DNA from: Myxococcota bacterium
GTDB taxonomy: Bacteria > Myxococcota_A > UBA796 > JAJRTE01
DNA: 64,000 bases
Assembly: GCA_024278455.1 (NCBI GenBank)
Contig: JAJRTE010000115.1
Span: 1-64,000 of the forward strand
Direction: 5' to 3'
Shown: positions 192 to 24,191 of the stretch, in pieces
Layout of the letters: each line of letters begins with the position of its first letter
Position numbering within the stretch: the first letter of the stretch is position 1
Translations under genes and position numbers: made by a program
Notes under the pieces: model-generated
Databases searched by the model: none
What the model was told of the DNA's origin: nothing
The model's input: only the letters and a program-made list of their open reading frames with translations

Positions 192-2318
192 ACGATTCCG
201 GAGCCCACGCCGCAGCCCGGCCTGTGCACCGAAACGGCCGGCGGGACGCTGCCCACTGGGTCAGATGTCCTGGAGTATGCCCACGATTCGGGCGTCGCGT
301 TCGCTACTCTGTCCGACCTCGTGTTCAACACCTACATCGGCTACGATGGCGTCTACAACCTCAACCGCGAGGACACGTGGGAAGCTGTCCGCTTCGACCT
401 CGAGGCACCGGCAACGCTCTACGGCGCTCGAGTCGCCTGGGGCGACCTGGGCCGCGATGAGCTTCGCCCAGTCGAACTCGGCGTCTACCCCGATTTCGGA
501 AGCAACGGTTTCGACTTCTGGCAATGGGACCCGGTGTGGAGTGGCACGAGGTGCGTCCGGGCGGCCGACAATGGGCTGTGGGTCGATTATGTTTTCGATC
601 CGCCCATCGAGATCGACGAACCCGGCATCGTCTACCTGGCCCACCTGTGGGACTCGAGGACTGAGCCACACCTTTTCTTCGACGAGGGCGCCACCGGCGA
701 CTGCGCCCACTACGACGATTGCCACAGCGCGCTCGACTGGCCCCGCGTGGATTCGGACACCTACTACAACGGCCTCTCGACCCCTTTCTGGTACGACTTC
801 CTGGCCCGCTTGGTGCTGGTCTATCACGATACGGTTCCTCCGCAGGACAAGTGGTTCCAGGTCAACGACGCTCTCCACGCAGGTAGCATGGTGGCCTGGG
901 GCGACTATGACAACGACGGTGATGACGACCTGATGACCAACGGACCCACGTTATACCGGAACGAGGGCGACGGCACGTTCACCGAAGTCACGGTCGATGC
1001 TGGACTGGACGCGGTGGCTTTCTCGGGGGGTGTCTGGGGCGACTACGACAACGATGGGTGCCTGGACTACTTCGGCCAGAACTCGAGCTATACCGGCTGG
1101 GACGCGCTGTTGCACAACGACTGCGACGGTACGTTCACGGATGTCACCCTCGAGGCGGGCATCTCCGACATCCAGGACGCGGTGGATTGCGTGCCCGACG
1201 TCGACGAAGAACATGCGCCGACCGAGGCGGTGGCCTGGGTGGACATAGACGCTGACGGATTCCTGGACCTGTACATGGCCAACCACGAGTGCTGGGAGAC
1301 CGGCGAGCACTACCTGGACCGTATCTGGCACAACGAGGGCGACGGCACGTTCGTCGAGTGGGGCGCCGAACACGGGTTCAGCACGGAGCGCCTGGCCGGC
1401 CGCGGTCTCAACCCGGCCGATGCGGACCAGGACGGCCTGGTGGACATCTTCGTCTCCAACTACCGGCTCGAGCCGAACTTCTACTACCACAACCTGGGAG
1501 GCGGCATGGTGGAAGAGGTGGCCGCCAACCTGGGCATCGCCGGCGACCCCTATCGCGACGCTCCAGGAGTCGTCTACTACGGCCACACCATCGGCTCCAC
1601 CTGGTCCGACCTCGACAACGATGGAGACTGGGACCTCTTTTCGGCCAACCTCGCCCATCCGCGTTTCTACGCCTTCAGCGACAAGTCTATGCTCCTCGAG
1701 AACGAGGACGGCCTGCACTTCACCGACGTGGCGGACAAGGCGGGCATCGTGTACCGGGAGACCCACTCCAATCCCACGATTTTCGATTTCGACAACGACG
1801 GGCTCGAAGACATCTTCATCACCTGTGTCTACGACGGGCGTGCGTCGGACCTCTATCACAATCTCGGCGATCTCCACTTCGACCTGGTGAACTATGAATC
1901 CGGCGCGGTGGTCCGCAACGGATGGGGCAGCGCGGCGGCCGATTTCGATAACGACGGGGACATCGATCTGGTCGCCTACGATCTGTTCGAGAACCGTTCG
2001 GGAGCAACGGGCAACAACTGGCTGCAGGTCAGGGTCGTCGGGGGGCCCACGGCAAATCGCGCTGCCATCGGTGCGCAGGTCATCCTGGAAGCGGGCGGCC
2101 TCGTCATGCGGAGGCAGGTGAGCGGAGGCTCGGGGACCGGCTGCCAGGACTCGGCGACGCTCTCGTTCGGCCTCGGCGAGGCAGTTTCGGCCGACCGGAT
2201 GACGGTGGTCTTTCCCGGTGGTCGCCGCCTGGTCGTGGCGGGGCCGATCGCGGGCAACCGGCGATACTGGGTCGGAGAAGCGGGGCTCCTGGGGACCGGC
2301 TGGACCCCACCGGAATAG
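3..2318 (+). CDS. Secreted FG-GAP/VCBS repeat protein with ASPIC/UnbV C-terminus (5' partial)
   Basis: The reading frame is open from the left edge, so the true start and any signal peptide lie outside the window. The first ~63 residues are three copies of a 21-residue Pro-rich unit ending in GDDDT, a typical surface-protein linker. The middle holds about seven calcium-binding FG-GAP/VCBS loops, such as DYDNDGDDDL, DIDADGFLDLY, DLDNDGDWDLF and DFDNDGDIDLV, which together imply a beta-propeller. The last ~95 residues (NNWLQVRV through FPGGRR) match the ASPIC/UnbV domain that often closes such proteins in myxobacteria. It is probably a cell-surface or secreted adhesive protein; ligand unknown. 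The stop is TAG at 2316. Confidence 0.85.
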   Translation, partial: SLPGPTPSPRPPTPAPGDDDTSLPGPTPSPRPPTPAPGDDDTSLPGPTPSPRPPTPAPGDDDTTIPEPTPQPGLCTETAGGTLPTGSDVLEYAHDSGVAFATLSDLVFNTYIGYDGVYNLNREDTWEAVRFDLEAPATLYGARVAWGDLGRDELRPVELGVYPDFGSNGFDFWQWDPVWSGTRCVRAADNGLWVDYVFDPPIEIDEPGIVYLAHLWDSRTEPHLFFDEGATGDCAHYDDCHSALDWPRVDSDTYYNGLSTPFWYDFLARLVLVYHDTVPPQDKWFQVNDALHAGSMVAWGDYDNDGDDDLMTNGPTLYRNEGDGTFTEVTVDAGLDAVAFSGGVWGDYDNDGCLDYFGQNSSYTGWDALLHNDCDGTFTDVTLEAGISDIQDAVDCVPDVDEEHAPTEAVAWVDIDADGFLDLYMANHECWETGEHYLDRIWHNEGDGTFVEWGAEHGFSTERLAGRGLNPADADQDGLVDIFVSNYRLEPNFYYHNLGGGMVEEVAANLGIAGDPYRDAPGVVYYGHTIGSTWSDLDNDGDWDLFSANLAHPRFYAFSDKSMLLENEDGLHFTDVADKAGIVYRETHSNPTIFDFDNDGLEDIFITCVYDGRASDLYHNLGDLHFDLVNYESGAVVRNGWGSAAADFDNDGDIDLVAYDLFENRSGATGNNWLQVRVVGGPTANRAAIGAQVILEAGGLVMRRQVSGGSGTGCQDSATLSFGLGEAVSADRMTVVFPGGRRLVVAGPIAGNRRYWVGEAGLLGTGWTPPE

Positions 2319-2474
2319 TGGACCCGACCCATCCCCCGGGGCAAGGGAGAAAACTGTAGCGAAGGCCGCCCGGCCGCATTCATACAGGTGAAGTCGATGT
2401 TGCTATCGGCAACGACAGGGACCCGGTCCCATCAACCTGAAGGGCGGCCCAGTCTCGGCTGCCGGGAGGTGACG

Positions 2475-3623
2475 ATGTCCACCAGGCGATGCTTTGGCAC
2501 GCTCCTTTTCGCTTCTCTCTTCCTGCTGCTGGCCGGCCAGGACCAGTGCCCGCCACCACCGCTGACCTACACACCGCTCGAGCCCGAGGAGGGTGTCGCG
2601 GAGAACATCACCGTCGAGGTCTACTCCGATGGGTGGGGCAACCTGCTGCAAACCTCCGTGCTGCGCACCGAAGGCGGCTTTCTTTGCGACGTGCCCGAGG
2701 AGACCCCCTACTACGACCCGCCCCAGTACTACATCTACGCCTTCGCGGACGGGTTCTACACCGAAATCTACTATTGCACCAAGGGCGAAAAGGTCCTCAT
2801 CGACCTGGACGCGGTGGGCGACCATCCTGGCGGTCTCACCGGCGCATTCTTCGCGGCGCAAAGCTTCTTCTCCGACCATCCCCTGGGCGATACGACCATC
2901 GACGTGACCTACGAAGATGGACGCTCGACCACGGTCACCACCGACAGGCAGGGCCGCTTCGGCATGGGCGACCTCCCGCTCGGAGCCTACGTCTTCAGCT
3001 TCGAGTACCAGGATCAGTTGTTCAAGTTCCGTCTCCAAAACACGGAAGCCACCGACTACGTGGACACGGTCTTCTACGAACCCATGCAGGCGGCCAAGCC
3101 GGTCATCTACCTCTATCCCGAGACCACTACCACCGTCGACGTCCGCCTCGAGTTCCCGGAAGGTGGCCATGTCACCGAATCGATCCCGGACTACGGGACA
3201 GGCTGGCACGTGACCGTCGACCCGGATGGCCTCATCGACGGTACCTACCCCTACTTGTTCTATGAAGCCTCGTTGCCACCCCTGTTCCAGCTCGACGAAG
3301 GGTGGCTCCTGGAAGGCGACGACCTGGATGGCGGACTGCGCAACCTCCTGCTCGACATGGGATTCGCCGGACGCGAGATCGACGACTTCGTCGACTACTG
3401 GCTTCCCCGCCTCGAGGGCTGGCCATGGTACGCGGTCTACCCGCAGGATGCGGACGCACTCGTGACGCTGACCATCACACCAGCCCCTGACAACCTCCTC
3501 CGCGCAAGCCTCCTGTTCCGCGGCCTGATGGACCCCATCGACCTCGAGCAGCCCCCGGACCCCGCGCCGTTCGCCAGGGAGGGGTTTGCGGCAACAGAAT
3601 GGGGCGTCCTGGTGATCGAATGA
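2475..3623 (+). CDS. Secreted protein of the KPVIYLYPE type, function unknown
   Basis: 382 residues. I chose ATG 2475 because GGGAGGTGACG lies just upstream and the protein then begins with a clear signal peptide (MSTRRCFGTLLFASLFLLLAG). Residues ~140-195 look like a carboxypeptidase-regulatory beta-sandwich (TTIDVTYEDGRSTTV ... GRFGMGDLPLGAYVFSF). The second half starts with KPVIYLYPET and continues with DYGTGWHVTVDPDG and YPYLFYEASL, a conserved pattern I recognise from uncharacterised secreted bacterial proteins. It follows the FG-GAP gene in the same direction after a 156-nt gap. No enzymatic residues are evident; an extracytoplasmic structural role is only a guess. Confidence 0.75.
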   Translation: MSTRRCFGTLLFASLFLLLAGQDQCPPPPLTYTPLEPEEGVAENITVEVYSDGWGNLLQTSVLRTEGGFLCDVPEETPYYDPPQYYIYAFADGFYTEIYYCTKGEKVLIDLDAVGDHPGGLTGAFFAAQSFFSDHPLGDTTIDVTYEDGRSTTVTTDRQGRFGMGDLPLGAYVFSFEYQDQLFKFRLQNTEATDYVDTVFYEPMQAAKPVIYLYPETTTTVDVRLEFPEGGHVTESIPDYGTGWHVTVDPDGLIDGTYPYLFYEASLPPLFQLDEGWLLEGDDLDGGLRNLLLDMGFAGREIDDFVDYWLPRLEGWPWYAVYPQDADALVTLTITPAPDNLLRASLLFRGLMDPIDLEQPPDPAPFAREGFAATEWGVLVIE

Positions 3624-3754
3624 CATCTGCGCACGATCGACAACGCCCCGCACAGCGGCTTCACCTGTCCTTCTGAACCCACCCCTTCCGGCAGTCGCCC
3701 CCGTCGAACCCGTTGCCCGCGGCTCCGGTCGAACAGCACCCCGTCGCGCCCCCC

Positions 3755-6139
3755 TCAGCGACAAGTGACTCGAGACGTCTTGAAATCGGCCCAGCAACGC
3801 ACGAGCGTGCCGGCTTCGACCTGAACACGAGTCTCGAGCCTTTGGCCATCCGGGCCGAGAAAGACGAGCTGGTGGACACCTTCGGCGAGGGGATGTTCGC
3901 GAACCGGGAACGCCTCCAGGGCATGACCGTCCAGCACGATCGTGGATGCGGTGAGCGAGGCGGCGTTGAGCTTGCCGAATCGCCGATGGCGTGCCGCTCC
4001 TCCGGCTGGCTTCTTTTCCGCCGCCCCATAAGGCCCCGGCGAGGCAGCGGTCTCCTTCCCGCCATCCGTGGCGCCGCCGGGACGCGGCAAGCCTCCACCT
4101 TCCACCATCTGCCTCGATGTCCCCGTGCTTCCACGTGGCTCGCCCCGGCCCACGGGCGTTGCCGGTGACGCCACGGCAGGAGACGAGCGAAGGGCCGGTT
4201 CGGGCACCACGGACGCACCAACCCCGGCAGTATCCCCGCCTGCCTCCACCTGCGTGCTCGCCCTGGCCAAGGATTCCGTCGCGGGCTGCACGCCGGAGTC
4301 AACCGCCCCACCCTCTCCTGGCTGCCGTTGCAGGACTGACACCGACACCCAAACCGTGCCGCACAGCACGAGCGCGCCGATACCCAGGAGGAGGTGACGC
4401 CGTCGCATCTTGCGCACTGGGGCCAATTCCGACGCCGCCGGGACGGTGCCGTTCTCTCGTTCTACCGGCGCTCCCCGGAGCGATGGCAACTTCATCGTCA
4501 CCGCGTCCACCGTCGCCTCTTCGGTCGCGGCTCGCGGTCCCGGGTCGGGCCGGGGGCGCGTTTCCACCGCCCTCCCGGTGGGCTCCATGCCCGGTGCCGT
4601 GGGCTCGATGCCCGGTGCCGTGGGCTCCATGCCCGGTGCACCCGGACCCAGACTGGTGACATCTTCGCCTGGGGGCGTGGGTTCCGCGATCGACGCGCTG
4701 CCCGTCGCCACAGGCGTTGTGGGTTCGTCGTCCTTGCCTGGCTGGAGCGGGCGGCTCGCGTCCGCCTGGGCGTCGTTCCCCCGTGTGACCACGGTGACAT
4801 CCGTGTCGTGGGCAAGCAACGGCTCTTCGTGCTCGCCGGTCCCCCCGGGGGCGCTCGACTCGAGCCCATCATGGTCCACTGTGGAAGCGCCAGCACCCTC
4901 AGCGACGTGATCGCCGGTTTCACCATCAGGCCTTGGTTGTGCCCCTTCCGTCAGTGAGAACAGGGTGGTGGGAATCGTATCCGGGGCAGAACAATCCGGG
5001 TCCTCGAGGCGACTTCGCCCCTCATCCTCGCGGTCCCGGGGTTCGTGTCCCTTCGAAGAACAGGCAGTCCGGGACTCTTCCCCAAAGGCCTCGACAGGTC
5101 TCGGTGGGGACTTGCCGCGCTCGAGCAACACGGTGGGCGTCTGGGACGCTTTCGGCGAGCCGGCACGGGGACCGGCTTCGACCGCCACCGCCTGGTTCGT
5201 CCCTTCCCCCGAGGACCGCATGACCGACGCGATCCAGTCGCGCAGCGAGACGCGCTGGCCGAGCTGTTGCCGGATGCGAGTCAGGTGTCCAACCATCTCG
5301 GCTGCCGACTGGAACCTTTCGTCGGGAGCACGGGCCAGTGCCCTCTGCAAGAAGGCGACGAGGTCGCTCCTGGCTGGAGAATCGGGCAACGCATCCAGGC
5401 GATGGCCGACCTGGGCTTCCTGGGCCTGCCGGACGGCCGTTTCGGTCGTCCTTGCGTCGTAGAGCGGCTCCATGGCGATCAGTTCGAACAAGACCGAGCC
5501 CACCGCGAACAAGTCGGCCCTGTAGTCCAGCTCGAGGACACCCCAGGCCTGCTCCGGGGACATGTAGCGAACCGTCCCCTTCAGGGTACCGGCGACGAGC
5601 GTCCGGTCCAGGTTGCATTCCGCACGGGCGACACCGAAGTCTCCCAGCTTGACATGACCGAACCTGCTCACGAGGATGTTCGACGGCTTGAGGTCCCTGT
5701 GGACCATGTTCAGGCGCTCGTTCTGGTGGTCGACGGCGGCATGGGCGAAATCCAGGGCCTGGCAGACGCCGATGACGATCTGGAGTGCCACGTCCGGGGG
5801 AATGCTTTTGCCCTGGTCCCGGCACACGCGCAAGAGCGCCTGAACGGTCGGGCCGTCCACGAATTCCATGGCAAGGAAGACCCGCCCGCCGACCTCGCCG
5901 AAGTCCAGCGTCTGCACGATGTTGGGGTGGAGCAGGTAGCCCCCCAGCCTGGCTTCGTTGATGAAGAAGCGCGTGAACCGCTCCTGGGAGGCGAGATGGG
6001 CGTGGACTATCTTGAGGGCGACCTTCTTGGTAAACCCCCCGATACCTTCCTGGTGCGCGAGATAGACGGCCGCCATGCCGCCGTGGCCAAGCAGTCTTAC
6101 AAGCCGATATCGGCCAGCGAATGCGCTCTCCAAAGACAT
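3755..6139 (-). CDS. Membrane Ser/Thr protein kinase with extracytoplasmic PEGA-like tail
   Basis: 794 residues from ATG 6139; an upstream in-frame TTG at 6187 is an alternative. The kinase domain spans ~residues 9-280 and has every key element: glycine loop GHGGMAAVY, VALK lysine, HRDLKPSN catalytic loop, DFG metal site, and RYMSPEQ in the activation segment. It should therefore be active. A Pro/Thr/Glu-rich linker (~300-580) contains three MEPTAPG-type repeats. One transmembrane helix follows at ~580-604 (LLLGIGALVLCGTVWVSVSV), then a low-complexity periplasmic stretch and a small beta-rich end resembling PEGA domains. The architecture is the common Hanks-type receptor kinase of myxobacteria. 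The signal sensed is unknown. Confidence 0.92.
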   Translation of the reverse strand: MSLESAFAGRYRLVRLLGHGGMAAVYLAHQEGIGGFTKKVALKIVHAHLASQERFTRFFINEARLGGYLLHPNIVQTLDFGEVGGRVFLAMEFVDGPTVQALLRVCRDQGKSIPPDVALQIVIGVCQALDFAHAAVDHQNERLNMVHRDLKPSNILVSRFGHVKLGDFGVARAECNLDRTLVAGTLKGTVRYMSPEQAWGVLELDYRADLFAVGSVLFELIAMEPLYDARTTETAVRQAQEAQVGHRLDALPDSPARSDLVAFLQRALARAPDERFQSAAEMVGHLTRIRQQLGQRVSLRDWIASVMRSSGEGTNQAVAVEAGPRAGSPKASQTPTVLLERGKSPPRPVEAFGEESRTACSSKGHEPRDREDEGRSRLEDPDCSAPDTIPTTLFSLTEGAQPRPDGETGDHVAEGAGASTVDHDGLESSAPGGTGEHEEPLLAHDTDVTVVTRGNDAQADASRPLQPGKDDEPTTPVATGSASIAEPTPPGEDVTSLGPGAPGMEPTAPGIEPTAPGMEPTGRAVETRPRPDPGPRAATEEATVDAVTMKLPSLRGAPVERENGTVPAASELAPVRKMRRRHLLLGIGALVLCGTVWVSVSVLQRQPGEGGAVDSGVQPATESLARASTQVEAGGDTAGVGASVVPEPALRSSPAVASPATPVGRGEPRGSTGTSRQMVEGGGLPRPGGATDGGKETAASPGPYGAAEKKPAGGAARHRRFGKLNAASLTASTIVLDGHALEAFPVREHPLAEGVHQLVFLGPDGQRLETRVQVEAGTLVRCWADFKTSRVTCR
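4580..4641 (-). repeat. 21-bp tandem repeat within kinase linker
   Basis: Three copies of a 21-bp unit (plus strand GGGCTCCATGCCCGGTGCCGT) encode a 7-residue repeat, roughly APGMEPT, in the linker between kinase domain and membrane helix. They are in frame and differ by single bases. Confidence 0.8.
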
Positions 6140-19608: not shown

Positions 19609-21048
19609 TCATGATTCGCGAATACACTCCGCGAACAAATTGATCCCCTGCTCCTCGTAGGTGATGTTCGTGGCCCCCCGGCCAAACCTGGATGCCTCGA
19701 ACAGCCGATCCATGTCCTGCTCGGAACGGTGCACGAGGTTCCACTCGAGCACATGTTCCATCAGCGCCTTGGTCGGATTGCTCGGATGGAAATTGCCCAG
19801 AATGACCCGCCCTCCGGGAGCGAGGACCGTGTAGATATAGTCCAATAACTTGATGACGAGTTGGTCACCGAAGTAATCGATGAGACCGATACTGTAGATG
19901 AGGTGCTGGGGGTCGATGTCCAGGGTCCGCCGCCCGACAGCCAAGTATATCAAGTTTTCTGGAACCAGCCGGATATGCCGGCTGATATGACGTTCCGTGG
20001 CCGTGTTGGACACGAAGGAAAGCGCTTTCGTGTCCATGTCCACCAGCGTGACCTCGAGGCGCGAAGGTTCCGTCAGTCGTTCGTAGACGTCGAAAACCTC
20101 CCGCGCCGGCCCGCACGCCAGGCTGGTGACTCGAGCGGGTCTGCCGTCGACCTGCTCGAGCGTCCGCACAATCTCGCGCGCGAGTAGCCCCCGCCGATTC
20201 CGGACCGCCTGCGCGGCAGGCTCCGCCAGGAAACAGTCGTCCAGCAACGGCCCGACATGGCCCGTGCCGTCCCCAGAGTTGCGATAGATCAATTCGATGG
20301 AAAAGAAATCCCCTGCATATCCCCGCGGCTTGGCATAGAACCGCCGCGCACACTCGGTCATCTGCAAGTAGGGCATGAGTTCCCGTTGCACCATTTGCCC
20401 GATAAGCGTGCGGGCCACTTCGCTGAGGTCCGAACCGCCACCCACCGTCTCGTTCAGCTTGCGTGTAAACGCCTGGAACTGCTTCCGGATTTCTCGCTCG
20501 AGTTCCGCGACCCGCGCCACGTCCTTCTTGATGGTCGCCTTGTCGAACTGGAGCATGGCTTCCTTGAACACATCCAGAAACTCCCGGATCTGGCTGAAAT
20601 GCTCCCCCTGGCTCGCCGCACGCTCCTGGGACTGCCGGCTCAGGTATCCCATGGTCCGGCGAAGGCGTCTCGAGACTATCGCGGCCAGCGAACGGTACAT
20701 GCTCGCCGCAGCCACGGGATCCGCCTCGAGAAAGGCCCTCAGGGTCGCGTGCCGGAGGGCCAGGACACGGGAATCCTCGGCGGCGACCACGGAGGCCGAT
20801 GCCTCGTGAGGATCTATGAAACTCATCTCCCCGACAATTTCGCCGTGCCCAAGAATCGCGAGCGGGCCGGGAACCGAACGGGTCTGGATGTGAAACAGCC
20901 CTTCGAGAATGAAGTACAGGGTTTCGATCGGGGTGCCTTCCTCGACAAGGACCCGGCCCTCTGGTACCGTCTCTTCGACGCCCAGTTCGAAAAGCCTCTG
21001 GCTCTGCTCGTTGGTCAGTGCGCCGAGCAATTCTGCAAGTTTGTTCAT
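19609..21048 (-). CDS. Cyclic-nucleotide-binding domain fused to SAM methyltransferase (PhcB-like)
   Basis: 479 residues from ATG 21048 (AGGTGAAAGTTTC upstream). Residues ~5-130 form a CNB/CAP-like barrel (ETLYFILEGLFHIQTR, LGHGEIVGEMSFIDPHEASAS). A helical linker (~150-215) leads to a methyltransferase domain with KPRGYAGDFFSIELIY (~238), LAEPAAQAVRNRR, the SAM-binding loop SLACGPAREVF (~304), the acidic strand end VTLVDMD and LAPGGRVILGNF. GYAGD followed by AVRNRR is the pattern of proteins annotated as 3-hydroxypalmitate methyl ester (extracellular factor) synthases of the PhcB type, so a fatty-acyl or similar carboxyl substrate is plausible but unproven. The same domain pair recurs, degenerate, at the end of the adjacent cyclase. 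Confidence 0.82.
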   Translation of the reverse strand: MNKLAELLGALTNEQSQRLFELGVEETVPEGRVLVEEGTPIETLYFILEGLFHIQTRSVPGPLAILGHGEIVGEMSFIDPHEASASVVAAEDSRVLALRHATLRAFLEADPVAAASMYRSLAAIVSRRLRRTMGYLSRQSQERAASQGEHFSQIREFLDVFKEAMLQFDKATIKKDVARVAELEREIRKQFQAFTRKLNETVGGGSDLSEVARTLIGQMVQRELMPYLQMTECARRFYAKPRGYAGDFFSIELIYRNSGDGTGHVGPLLDDCFLAEPAAQAVRNRRGLLAREIVRTLEQVDGRPARVTSLACGPAREVFDVYERLTEPSRLEVTLVDMDTKALSFVSNTATERHISRHIRLVPENLIYLAVGRRTLDIDPQHLIYSIGLIDYFGDQLVIKLLDYIYTVLAPGGRVILGNFHPSNPTKALMEHVLEWNLVHRSEQDMDRLFEASRFGRGATNITYEEQGINLFAECIRES

Positions 21049-21239
21049 GAAACTTTCACCTCGCAAGAAACATGAATCGAGTCACGTCAGGCCAACCAGG
21101 ATAACACAACACGCTGGGCAGTGGCAGCTCGAGATGTCCGGCGCGGCCCGTGCTCCGTGTCAACGCAATACCCGCCACTGTCCATTCTCTTCAGCCCGCC
21201 GTGCACCGCCGGCCGTGTAACACGGCGCAAAACCAGCGC

Positions 21240-24191
21240 TCATACCTCGCGCCAGGTCTCGATGAACGAGCACCCTCCCGTCCCGGACGATGGAAGGTGC
21301 ACCACGTTTGCACCGAAACTGGTCTTCTGAATGATGCCCGTAATGACATCCTCCTCCAGGCTGCGGATAGGACAGTTCAGGATATACTCCATGAAGACCT
21401 GGAATGTCTCCGGCAACAAGAACTGGCCGAGGAGCAGGGTACCGCCTGGAGCAAGAAGCGAGTAGACCTCCTCGAGGAAGTCGACCAGCGTCGATTCGTC
21501 CTGTTCACCCGAGACGTGCTGCACAATGATCATATCTTGGGGCACGAGCCGCAACCGGGTACGCAGCACCCGGCTTCCGCCAGCGACCTCGGCCCTGACA
21601 AACGTGAACTGGCGTCTCACACCGGCAACGTCGGCCTTCTGCCCCGCGGCGGAAAGGTTCGCGAGGTTGTCATCCACCACGGTCAAACGCATGTTGGACG
21701 GGTGCTCGAGTGCCTCGAGCGCCATGAAGAGTTCCGGTGCGGAATGGGTGGCGAAGCTGGCAACACGCCAGAGGGGCTTGTCCGGTCGAAAGGACTGCAC
21801 GACGTGATCGGCGATGGTACGGGCACTCTGTCGAATCACCCTGGCCAGCGGCGTCTCCATGAACCACTCATCGATCAACCGTCCCAGGGGATCGTTGCTG
21901 AGCGCTGTCCTGTTCAGGACCGCGTGGACCACGGCATGGGTCAACCGGCTCCGCTGGTAGCAGTCGCGGACCAGTTCGCTCCGCATGAGAAAACGGGACA
22001 CCTCCCGCTGGGAGAGCCAGGCTCGAGCCGCGAGGTCTTCATGTGTCGCCTCCGGGTCCCCGGCGAAGGCCTCCACGAGCTTGTCACAGGCCGCCGACAC
22101 CTTCTTCCTGGCGTGGCGGGCGGTCTCCTCGTCTGCGTCCAGGAGCGGGTGGAGGTGAATCTGGAGGCCTCGGAGGGCTTGCAGGAGGTCCACGGGCAAC
22201 TCCGACGTGTCGGCGGAGTCCGGAAACGGCCGGGGGGGAGTCGGCGGCAGCACGGACCCCTCGGTGCCGATGGAAAACAGCCGGGCGTTGGCTATGCGCA
22301 CACGCTTGGCCAACACCAGCGCGAAAGAATGAAACAGGCGAGCCCCGATCCCGGGCAAATCCTTGTGCATCCTCTGGAGGCGGTTCAGGTCGAACCGCAG
22401 CACCGACCCCTCCTCCAGCGCGACCACCGTGGCACTGGCCGGCTCCATGCTCACGAACGACAGCTCCCCGATGATCTCCCCGGGGCCGAGCAGAGCCACT
22501 TCGATATCCACGTCGTTCCGGTTGATCCGGACGCCGAACAGCCCCTTGACCACGAGAAACAGGACACTCAGGTCCTGGCCCTCCTGGATAAGGACCTGCC
22601 CCTCCTGGACCGGCACGTGGTCCGCCACTTCCAGCAGCCGCTCCCGATCCTCGGGAATGAGCATGGCGAACGTGCTGAGCGGATCGAACTCGTCCGGGAG
22701 TATGTGGGGCGGGGCGGCTCGAGCGCGCACCGCACGTGGCTTCCGGGCAGCCCCATTCTCCTCCGTCCATCGCTCCAACTCCTCGAAGAAGCGGTCGTTC
22801 GGCTTGCGACCCGCCGCGTCCGCGGAGTATTCGGGGCGGAGCCGGGTGACCCGGGTCATCGCCACCGGTCCCTTCCCCCGGACGGGGATATAGCCCCGGT
22901 CCTCTCCTTCGAAAAAGCGCTGCGCCTTGCGGTAGATGTCGGCTGCCATGTTCAGGCTGGCCGGCTGGCCCGTGGATTGCATTCGGCTCGCCATGTTGAC
23001 GGTATCGCCCCAAAGGTCGTATGTAAACTTCTTGTTACCGATCACGCCGGCCACCACCGGCCCGGTGTGTATGCCCAGCCGCATGCGCCATCCGCTGCCG
23101 TCCGGAGCACGCAAGTCACCCGACTCGATCGCATCGAGCATCTCGAGACCGGTGAGAATACAGGCCACGAGATGGTCCTTGCTGTCACCGAGCACGCCCC
23201 CAGCGCACATGTAGGCGTCTCCGATGGTCTTGAGTTTCTCCAGTCCCCTCCGGGTGATGATTTCGTCGAATCGCGAGAAGGCCCTGTCCAATCCCTCAAC
23301 CAGGTCGGTAGGGTCCACCCGGCTGGACATGCTGGTGAATCCCACGAAGTCGGAAAAAAGGATGGTGCAGGAGGGAATGTGCCGGGCCTGGACCCGCCCG
23401 TGCGCCTTGAGTTCGTCGGCGACTTCCTTGGGAAGAATGTTGAGCAGCAGCCGCTCGCTCCGGGCTTTCTCGAGTTCGATCTCCCTGCGCTGCAGAAACT
23501 CCACCACCCTGAGCCGCTGGGCGTTGGCATTGATGATGAGGCCGATGAGAAACGTGGATCCCAGAAAGAAGTTCGCGTTGGTGACCAACTCCGGTGCCAC
23601 CAAGGGGTCGAAGACAAACATCAACACGTTGAGCTGTCCAATGATGGCCGTCAACAGCAGGGCCATCTCCCATATCGGCAAGGGAAACGCGGTCGAGGCC
23701 GCCAGGATGACCAGGTTCATGCCGGCGTAGTAGGGCGTGTCCATACCCCCGGCGATGAGGATGAGTCCATCGAGGCCCCCGGCGTAGATGGCCGCGAAAA
23801 CCCAGGCCAGGAGGCGGGAACGCCTGGGCAACGTGCCCCTCTTGCCGGTGATGAACAGGGTCACGATGAGAACGAGTCCGGCCCCCGTGGTCACCGCGCG
23901 GACCGCCGCCAACTGCGGCACCTTCTCGGGATACAGCACGACGTCCAGGATGAGAAACAGGGGGAAGAGAATCGCGCCCAGGATGGACAGGATCCACAGG
24001 CTGTTCGCCGTGGTGATCCGAAGATCGTCCCTGAGTTCCTCGGCGTAGGCCTCGGGAACGGCCAGCCCGGCAAAATGCCGAATCCGCTCTACCCAGGACT
24101 CCCCTTCCCAGCCAGGCACCGATACCCCTCGGGCGCGCAACGGGTCCTCGTGCACCGATGCGCCTGGCGTTCTTTCCTCGGAGAGGGCCAT
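21240..24191 (-). CDS. Membrane class III adenylate cyclase fused to CNB domain and degenerate methyltransferase
   Basis: 983 residues from ATG 24191 (a TTG three codons upstream is an alternative). Residues ~50-230 hold about six transmembrane helices. The cyclase domain follows with metal site FSDFVGFT (~279), LEKLKTIGDAYM and YDLWGDTVNMASRM. The Lys and Asp at the purine-binding positions point to ATP rather than GTP. A CNB domain (~504-625) has ILIQEG-type and LGPGEIIGELSFVSMEPASAT motifs. The last ~240 residues align with the methyltransferase of the next gene (PLGRLIDEWFMETPLARVIR against HVGPLLDDCFLAEPAAQAVR), but GYAGD is missing and the SAM loop reads SFATHSAPELF. The domain is probably inactive and may be regulatory. 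It likely makes cAMP read by itself and its neighbour. Confidence 0.9.
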   Translation of the reverse strand: MALSEERTPGASVHEDPLRARGVSVPGWEGESWVERIRHFAGLAVPEAYAEELRDDLRITTANSLWILSILGAILFPLFLILDVVLYPEKVPQLAAVRAVTTGAGLVLIVTLFITGKRGTLPRRSRLLAWVFAAIYAGGLDGLILIAGGMDTPYYAGMNLVILAASTAFPLPIWEMALLLTAIIGQLNVLMFVFDPLVAPELVTNANFFLGSTFLIGLIINANAQRLRVVEFLQRREIELEKARSERLLLNILPKEVADELKAHGRVQARHIPSCTILFSDFVGFTSMSSRVDPTDLVEGLDRAFSRFDEIITRRGLEKLKTIGDAYMCAGGVLGDSKDHLVACILTGLEMLDAIESGDLRAPDGSGWRMRLGIHTGPVVAGVIGNKKFTYDLWGDTVNMASRMQSTGQPASLNMAADIYRKAQRFFEGEDRGYIPVRGKGPVAMTRVTRLRPEYSADAAGRKPNDRFFEELERWTEENGAARKPRAVRARAAPPHILPDEFDPLSTFAMLIPEDRERLLEVADHVPVQEGQVLIQEGQDLSVLFLVVKGLFGVRINRNDVDIEVALLGPGEIIGELSFVSMEPASATVVALEEGSVLRFDLNRLQRMHKDLPGIGARLFHSFALVLAKRVRIANARLFSIGTEGSVLPPTPPRPFPDSADTSELPVDLLQALRGLQIHLHPLLDADEETARHARKKVSAACDKLVEAFAGDPEATHEDLAARAWLSQREVSRFLMRSELVRDCYQRSRLTHAVVHAVLNRTALSNDPLGRLIDEWFMETPLARVIRQSARTIADHVVQSFRPDKPLWRVASFATHSAPELFMALEALEHPSNMRLTVVDDNLANLSAAGQKADVAGVRRQFTFVRAEVAGGSRVLRTRLRLVPQDMIIVQHVSGEQDESTLVDFLEEVYSLLAPGGTLLLGQFLLPETFQVFMEYILNCPIRSLEEDVITGIIQKTSFGANVVHLPSSGTGGCSFIETWREV

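Follow-up and report, generated by a model that had tools for sequence, protein, structure and literature searches.

A methyltransferase gene beside a six-helix class III adenylate cyclase: a possible quorum-type lipid signal synthase and receptor in a Myxococcota bacterium

Introduction

In the phcBSRQ quorum-sensing system of Ralstonia/Burkholderiales, a SAM-methyltransferase of the GYAGD/LACGPA type (PhcB) is encoded beside a membrane sensor (PhcS) whose output is a histidine kinase, with response regulators nearby. What the large membrane anchors of adenylate cyclases do has long been a puzzle. A quorum-sensor chimera reported in 2016 and work on lipid ligands from 2024–2025 are said to argue that these anchors are receptors; to our knowledge, the natural ligands of the bacterial anchors are mostly unknown. 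The chimera, CqsS-AC (CqsS-Rv1625c), was activated by the lipophilic autoinducer CAI-1, and a survey of the same year found only local matches of 20–25% between CqsS-type domains and adenylate cyclase anchors (PMC4821796). In the bacterial class III cyclase Rv1625c, fatty acids and lipids act through the membrane domain (PMC12505454).

Here we describe two adjoining genes, A and B, in a window of 64,000 nucleotides (the whole stretch of DNA analysed, contig JAJRTE010000115.1 of a Myxococcota bacterium). A first-pass annotation had read them as a local cAMP relay in which cAMP made by B binds to the CNB domains of both proteins and switches methylation. We propose instead that the product of A is a signal synthase, and we hold with moderate confidence that A and B form a PhcB/PhcS-like pair of signal synthase and receptor, in which a class III adenylate cyclase takes the place of the receptor's histidine kinase. 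Our literature search found no paper on the CNB-methyltransferase family of A or on a natural synthase-plus-cyclase pair.

Results

The two genes are neighbours on the minus strand, as annotated (Table 1), but a single operon is unproven because 191 bp separates them. They are flanked by an FGGY kinase and an M50B protease, which had been suggested to belong to the same unit; neither has a homologue beside any A orthologue, which led us to reject the suggestion. Response regulators are absent beside the pair, unlike in the PhcB/PhcS arrangement.

Table 1. Positions of genes A and B and of their domains in the window
Feature	Position	Strand	Residues	Description or basis
Gene A (P0001)	19609..21048	minus	479 aa	ATG start; CNB and intact class I SAM-methyltransferase
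CNB domain of A	20722..20973	minus	26-109	Pfam cNMP_binding, 1.7e-17
Methyltransferase domain of A	19612..20412	minus	~213-479	Pfam Methyltransf_20, 2.5e-9; motif positions
Gene B (P0002)	21240..24191	minus	983 aa	6TM receptor-like domain, class III adenylate cyclase, CNB, predicted pseudo-methyltransferase
6TM receptor-like domain of B	23457..24062	minus	~45-245	Sensor profile, 1.6e-31
Class III cyclase catalytic domain of B	22860..23390	minus		Pfam Guanylate_cyc, 1.7e-49; residue positions
CNB domain of B	22365..22610	minus	528-609	Pfam cNMP_binding, 1e-15
Predicted pseudo-methyltransferase tail of B	21243..22037	minus	~719-983	Alignment and motif loss

The methyltransferase of A carries KPRGYAGD at residues 240–247, SLACGPA at 309, GLIDYF at 388 and GNFHP at 418, and is thus an intact member of the GYAGD/LACGPA superfamily. 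The earlier description of these motifs as complete therefore stands, and that of a PhcB-type enzyme is supported insofar as superfamily members elsewhere occupy phcBSRQ-like operons. The AlphaFold2 model of A has a mean pLDDT of 92, and its Foldseek matches are CRP-type CNBs and SAM-methyltransferases. Apart from B, A is the sole protein in this 7 Mb genome that matches A over its methyltransferase.

Protein B was correctly described as a membrane cyclase of the adenylate type. Its six helices precede a catalytic domain that contains two metal Asp residues (D281 and D325), the adenine-type pair K321 and D392, and the transition-state residues N399 and R403, roles that we take over from established knowledge of class III cyclases. 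This complete set is canonical and is the pattern expected of an active adenylate cyclase. The reported homology between the two C-terminal regions also held, with an alignment of A and B at 26% identity over 487 residues (E=2e-36) that spans both the CNB and the methyltransferase regions. The B tail used as query recovers CNB-methyltransferases from other genomes, down to 2e-29 and 5e-36, so this homology is not due to chance. The expectation that both C-termini would match one methyltransferase profile was borne out for A but not for the B tail, which alone matched no Pfam methyltransferase family. In the B tail GYAGD is missing, motif I (the glycine-rich loop, SLACGPA in A) has become SFATHSAPE from residue 812, and GLIDYF has become HVSGEQ. 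Because these motifs are lost or broken, we read the tail as a catalytically dead pseudo-methyltransferase, so that the locus has one intact methyltransferase and not two working ones. A recent tandem duplication of A was considered as the source of the tail but was not supported: in our tree the B tail is a very long branch outside the A-orthologue clade, a placement whose alternative is not rejected (p-AU 0.245). Among 71 genomes of the class, we found no cyclase-CNB-methyltransferase fusion other than B.

The strongest clue to the role of the pair is the N-terminal receptor-like domain of B, which the first-pass annotation did not mention. In BLAST comparisons with neighbourhood genes, this domain matches the N-termini of proteins that immediately adjoin stand-alone methyltransferases. 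We built a profile from 20 membrane domains of such methyltransferase-adjacent partner proteins, with B excluded, and ran it on 1291 proteins. It recovered B (Table 1) and a cyclase of a second genome, G001 (1.3e-30), and nearly all of the remaining matches are methyltransferase-adjacent. A sensor-domain neighbour is present at 37 of the 51 other intact methyltransferases of the superfamily, just as B adjoins A. All six family invariants (D83, R98, Y154, G157, L160 and F209) are found in B, which holds the only copy of the domain in its genome. The similarity of B to the sensor-kinase domains is full-length and significant, compared with the local matches of the 2016 survey. Structural comparison of the membrane domain (AlphaFold2 mean pLDDT 87) placed PAO1-ImcA and the anchors of mammalian AC8, AC9 and AC5 nearest in Foldseek (TM 0.56–0.60, probability 1.00), a likeness to the mammalian anchors that is only suggestive because the E-values are weak (0.005–0.5). 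A search of PDB sequences with the sensor profile gave no useful match.

The outputs attached to this sensor domain vary. At L158 it is joined to a histidine kinase, encoded in an operon whose order, methyltransferase/HK/RR-HK/RR, resembles that of phcBSRQ, in L135 and L187 to a hybrid kinase, and in L161 (7518-10267), L165 and L177 to a SpoIIE phosphatase, preceded by the methyltransferase; in the window, the output is an adenylate cyclase. We draw the likeness of A and B to PhcB and PhcS through gene order and through domain homology to such look-alikes (the phcBSRQ-like operons of Hydrogenophaga); the sensor-kinase domains of the phcBSRQ-like operons L158, L169, L185 and L186 are homologous to the membrane domain of B. 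In addition to the 37 methyltransferases counted above, two intact ones are followed by a six-helix class III cyclase, 18 bp downstream at L149 (7761-10679) and 3 bp downstream at L167 (6709-9618). The membrane domain of the L167 cyclase matches the sensor profile (E=1.4e-5); that of the L149 cyclase showed no significant similarity to the family. Together, these arrangements suggest a single synthase-receptor core that exchanges kinase, phosphatase and cyclase outputs.

Several further features of this family were observed. The L149 and L167 cyclases both end in a zinc-ribbon-like motif. At L071, L073 and L074 a PilZ-like domain is fused to the superfamily methyltransferase (at L074 the PilZ Pfam score, 1.8e-4, falls narrowly short of the cut-off), and the hybrid histidine kinase upstream bears the same sensor domain. 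The N-terminus of A is a CNB, as against the PilZ or PilZ-like N-terminus of several other putative synthases. In genus g16 (L182-L184), sensor-domain proteins of ~870 aa have no methyltransferase beside them and follow a protein of ~930 aa.

A scan of genome contigs returned ~30 relatives of A at 36–56% identity, most of them full length, from Planctomycetota, Acidobacteriota, Bacteroidota, Ignavibacteria, Gemmatimonadota, Pseudomonadota, Verrucomicrobiota and Plesiocystis pacifica. The CNB-methyltransferase orthologues L101-L130 resemble A over their full length (36–50% identity), with the same motifs, but a B-like neighbour is found only beside A. Class III cyclases nevertheless recur within two genes of an A orthologue (L104, L106, L107, L108, L111, L112 and L194), so that the predicted adjacency in relatives holds for the two families and not for the exact A-B pair, which occurs only in this genome. 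These cyclases differ in architecture from B, carrying FHA, GAF-FHA, HAMP, CHASE2 or no added domain, a variety that argues against a single inherited arrangement. Of the 23 genomes whose class III cyclases were counted, 6 have such a neighbour against 0.08 expected from the cyclase counts at ~900 genes per Mb; the Poisson probability of 2.6e-10 is indicative only, since these genomes, several of them from Planctomycetota, do not form a fully independent sample. In G385 and G388 the adjoining cyclase is the sole class III cyclase of the genome. Kinases (Ser/Thr or histidine) are neighbours at L101, L123 and L102.

The recurrent cyclases, together with the adenylate-type residues of B, speak for the cAMP relay; the CNB domains speak against it. 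CRP and PKA bind the cyclic phosphate through an Arg of the phosphate-binding cassette. The cassettes of A, GEMSFIDPHEASASV, and B, GELSFVSMEPASATV, retain the Glu and have Ala at the Arg position (A83 and A585), and so depart from the cAMP-binding CRP/PKA type. The Arg is also absent in nearly all of ~24 full-length A orthologues, where readable cassettes nearly always show a non-Arg residue, such as Ala or Pro, at this position (consensus PASATV), whereas three other CNB proteins of the same genome have the canonical PRSATV/PRSAS. In PKA this Arg neutralises the cyclic phosphate, and the Arg-less PKA of trypanosomes binds nucleosides (PMC10959531). Moreover, the neighbour cyclases L104, L106, L107 and L111 lack the adenine-type Lys. 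Judged from the residues, classical binding of cAMP by the conserved A-type CNB is thus unlikely, and the claim that both CNBs bind cAMP is not supported. The relay as a whole is doubtful and not the leading reading, and we consider it unlikely.

The same observations could instead indicate that the CNB is a conserved, rewired second-messenger receptor for another small molecule (a cyclic nucleotide or a nucleoside) that the neighbouring cyclases make or tune. The strong conservation of the rest of the cassette (GExSFLExxPASATVxAxE), the recurrence of cyclases without the adenine-type Lys and the trypanosome precedent would fit such a receptor. However, B has canonical adenylate residues, and the trypanosome signature, a Glu at the position of PKA A202, is absent from A, which has Ser76 there. 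We regard this explanation as improbable.

Equally improbable, in our estimation, is a chance neighbourhood, in which the sensor-cyclase is an orphan and the methyltransferase, unrelated to it, belongs to secondary metabolism. The A-B pair is not conserved as such, and related methyltransferase domains are found inside or beside PKS genes, L125 among them. In addition, the G001 sensor-cyclase is 61% identical to that of B, lacks the CNB-methyltransferase tail and comes from a genome in which no methyltransferase was detectable, so sensor-cyclases can also occur alone. Against chance, the tail of B is homologous to A itself, the single sensor domain and the single A-type methyltransferase of a 7 Mb genome adjoin each other, and the same two families are paired in dozens of other genomes.

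The adjacency of class III cyclase and CNB genes also recalls Pycsar (PycC with a CNB effector), and the pair gave domain-level matches to the PADLOC PycC and PycTIR models; a CNB-patatin gene stands in the L111 operon. However, these matches are confined to generic cyclase and CNB domains. Where Pycsar has a killing effector, A has a conserved methyltransferase, which is no known killing domain, and the linked sensor family pairs with kinases and phosphatases too. We therefore rejected membership in Pycsar, and an anti-phage system of this kind seems highly improbable. The L111 genes (1404-5528) stand in a row that resembles an operon and encode a cyclase-FHA, a CNB-patatin phospholipase and a CNB-methyltransferase.

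Discussion

Our results favour a model in which A and B are a signal synthase and its receptor. This reading draws on a sensor profile that finds B although built without it, on the frequency with which superfamily methyltransferases adjoin the sensor domain, on the variety of outputs, cyclases at L149 and L167 included, and on the meeting of the genome's only sensor domain with its only A-type methyltransferase apart from B. The excess of class III cyclases flanking A orthologues points the same way, as do the CqsS-AC chimera and Rv1625c, in which lipophilic ligands act through the membrane domain. Several observations weaken it. Beyond the restriction of the exact pair to this genome and the solitary G001 sensor-cyclase, no sensor-domain neighbour was found for the closest orthologues of A, the distant L133 being the exception; the gap of 191 bp leaves a single operon unproven, and both the substrate and the ligand are conjectural. 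In four genomes an A orthologue coexists with a separate methyltransferase-sensor pair (L185-L188), which indicates that A-type and PhcB-type methyltransferases do not always form a single system.

In the synthase-receptor model, the substrate of A would be a lipid-like acid, perhaps a 3-hydroxy fatty acid, whose methylation would yield a membrane-permeable signal. The six-helix domain of B would bind this signal and change the activity of the cyclase, so that the signal level would be converted into cAMP and read by other receptors of the cell. The CNB of A may have a regulatory role, its ligand probably being bound otherwise than in the classical cAMP mode, and the CNB and dead methyltransferase of B may be a regulatory or docking domain that pairs B with A or senses SAM or the product. 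The sequences show the domain make-up, the membrane-domain homology, the state of the motifs, the absence of the cassette Arg and the recurrent pairing in relatives; the substrate, diffusion, ligand binding, direction of regulation and role of the tail are our inferences.

Thus, the locus may be a natural quorum-type system: one gene would encode a lipid signal synthase, and its neighbour a class III adenylate cyclase that receives the signal through its six-helix anchor. We consider this proposal plausible and put it forward tentatively. As in the CqsS-Rv1625c chimera and the hypothesis that cyclase anchors are receptors (PMC4821796, PMC11606603, PMC12505454), a 6TM receptor-type domain directly joins a homodimeric class III cyclase in B. 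In contrast to the chimera, the fusion is natural, and the neighbouring gene encodes a candidate ligand synthase. The anchor of this natural class III cyclase shows clear homology to sensor domains linked genetically to signal-making methyltransferases, a methyltransferase of this kind adjoins it, and the pair makes the question of cyclase-anchor ligands testable. If the model is correct, the ligand of a cyclase could be predicted from a neighbouring gene, and bacterial autoinducer sensors would be linked directly to adenylate cyclase anchors. Such a system could reveal what the membrane parts of adenylate cyclases sense.

Two further groups of related proteins were noted. Class-wide proteins with the same two-domain layout as A (L049-L066, L078-L083; ~25–30% identity) occur in most genomes and were dropped as A orthologues: they keep the CNB Arg, have lost the methyltransferase motifs and sit in a different neighbourhood, an FHA-ABC transporter operon with a lipoprotein and a small secreted protein. 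An Enterobacter ludwigii plasmid (NZ_CP134637.1 46665-47540) carries the same methyltransferase domain, at 36% identity, inside a protein annotated as a type I polyketide synthase, and at L125 a PKS gene adjoins the CNB-methyltransferase.
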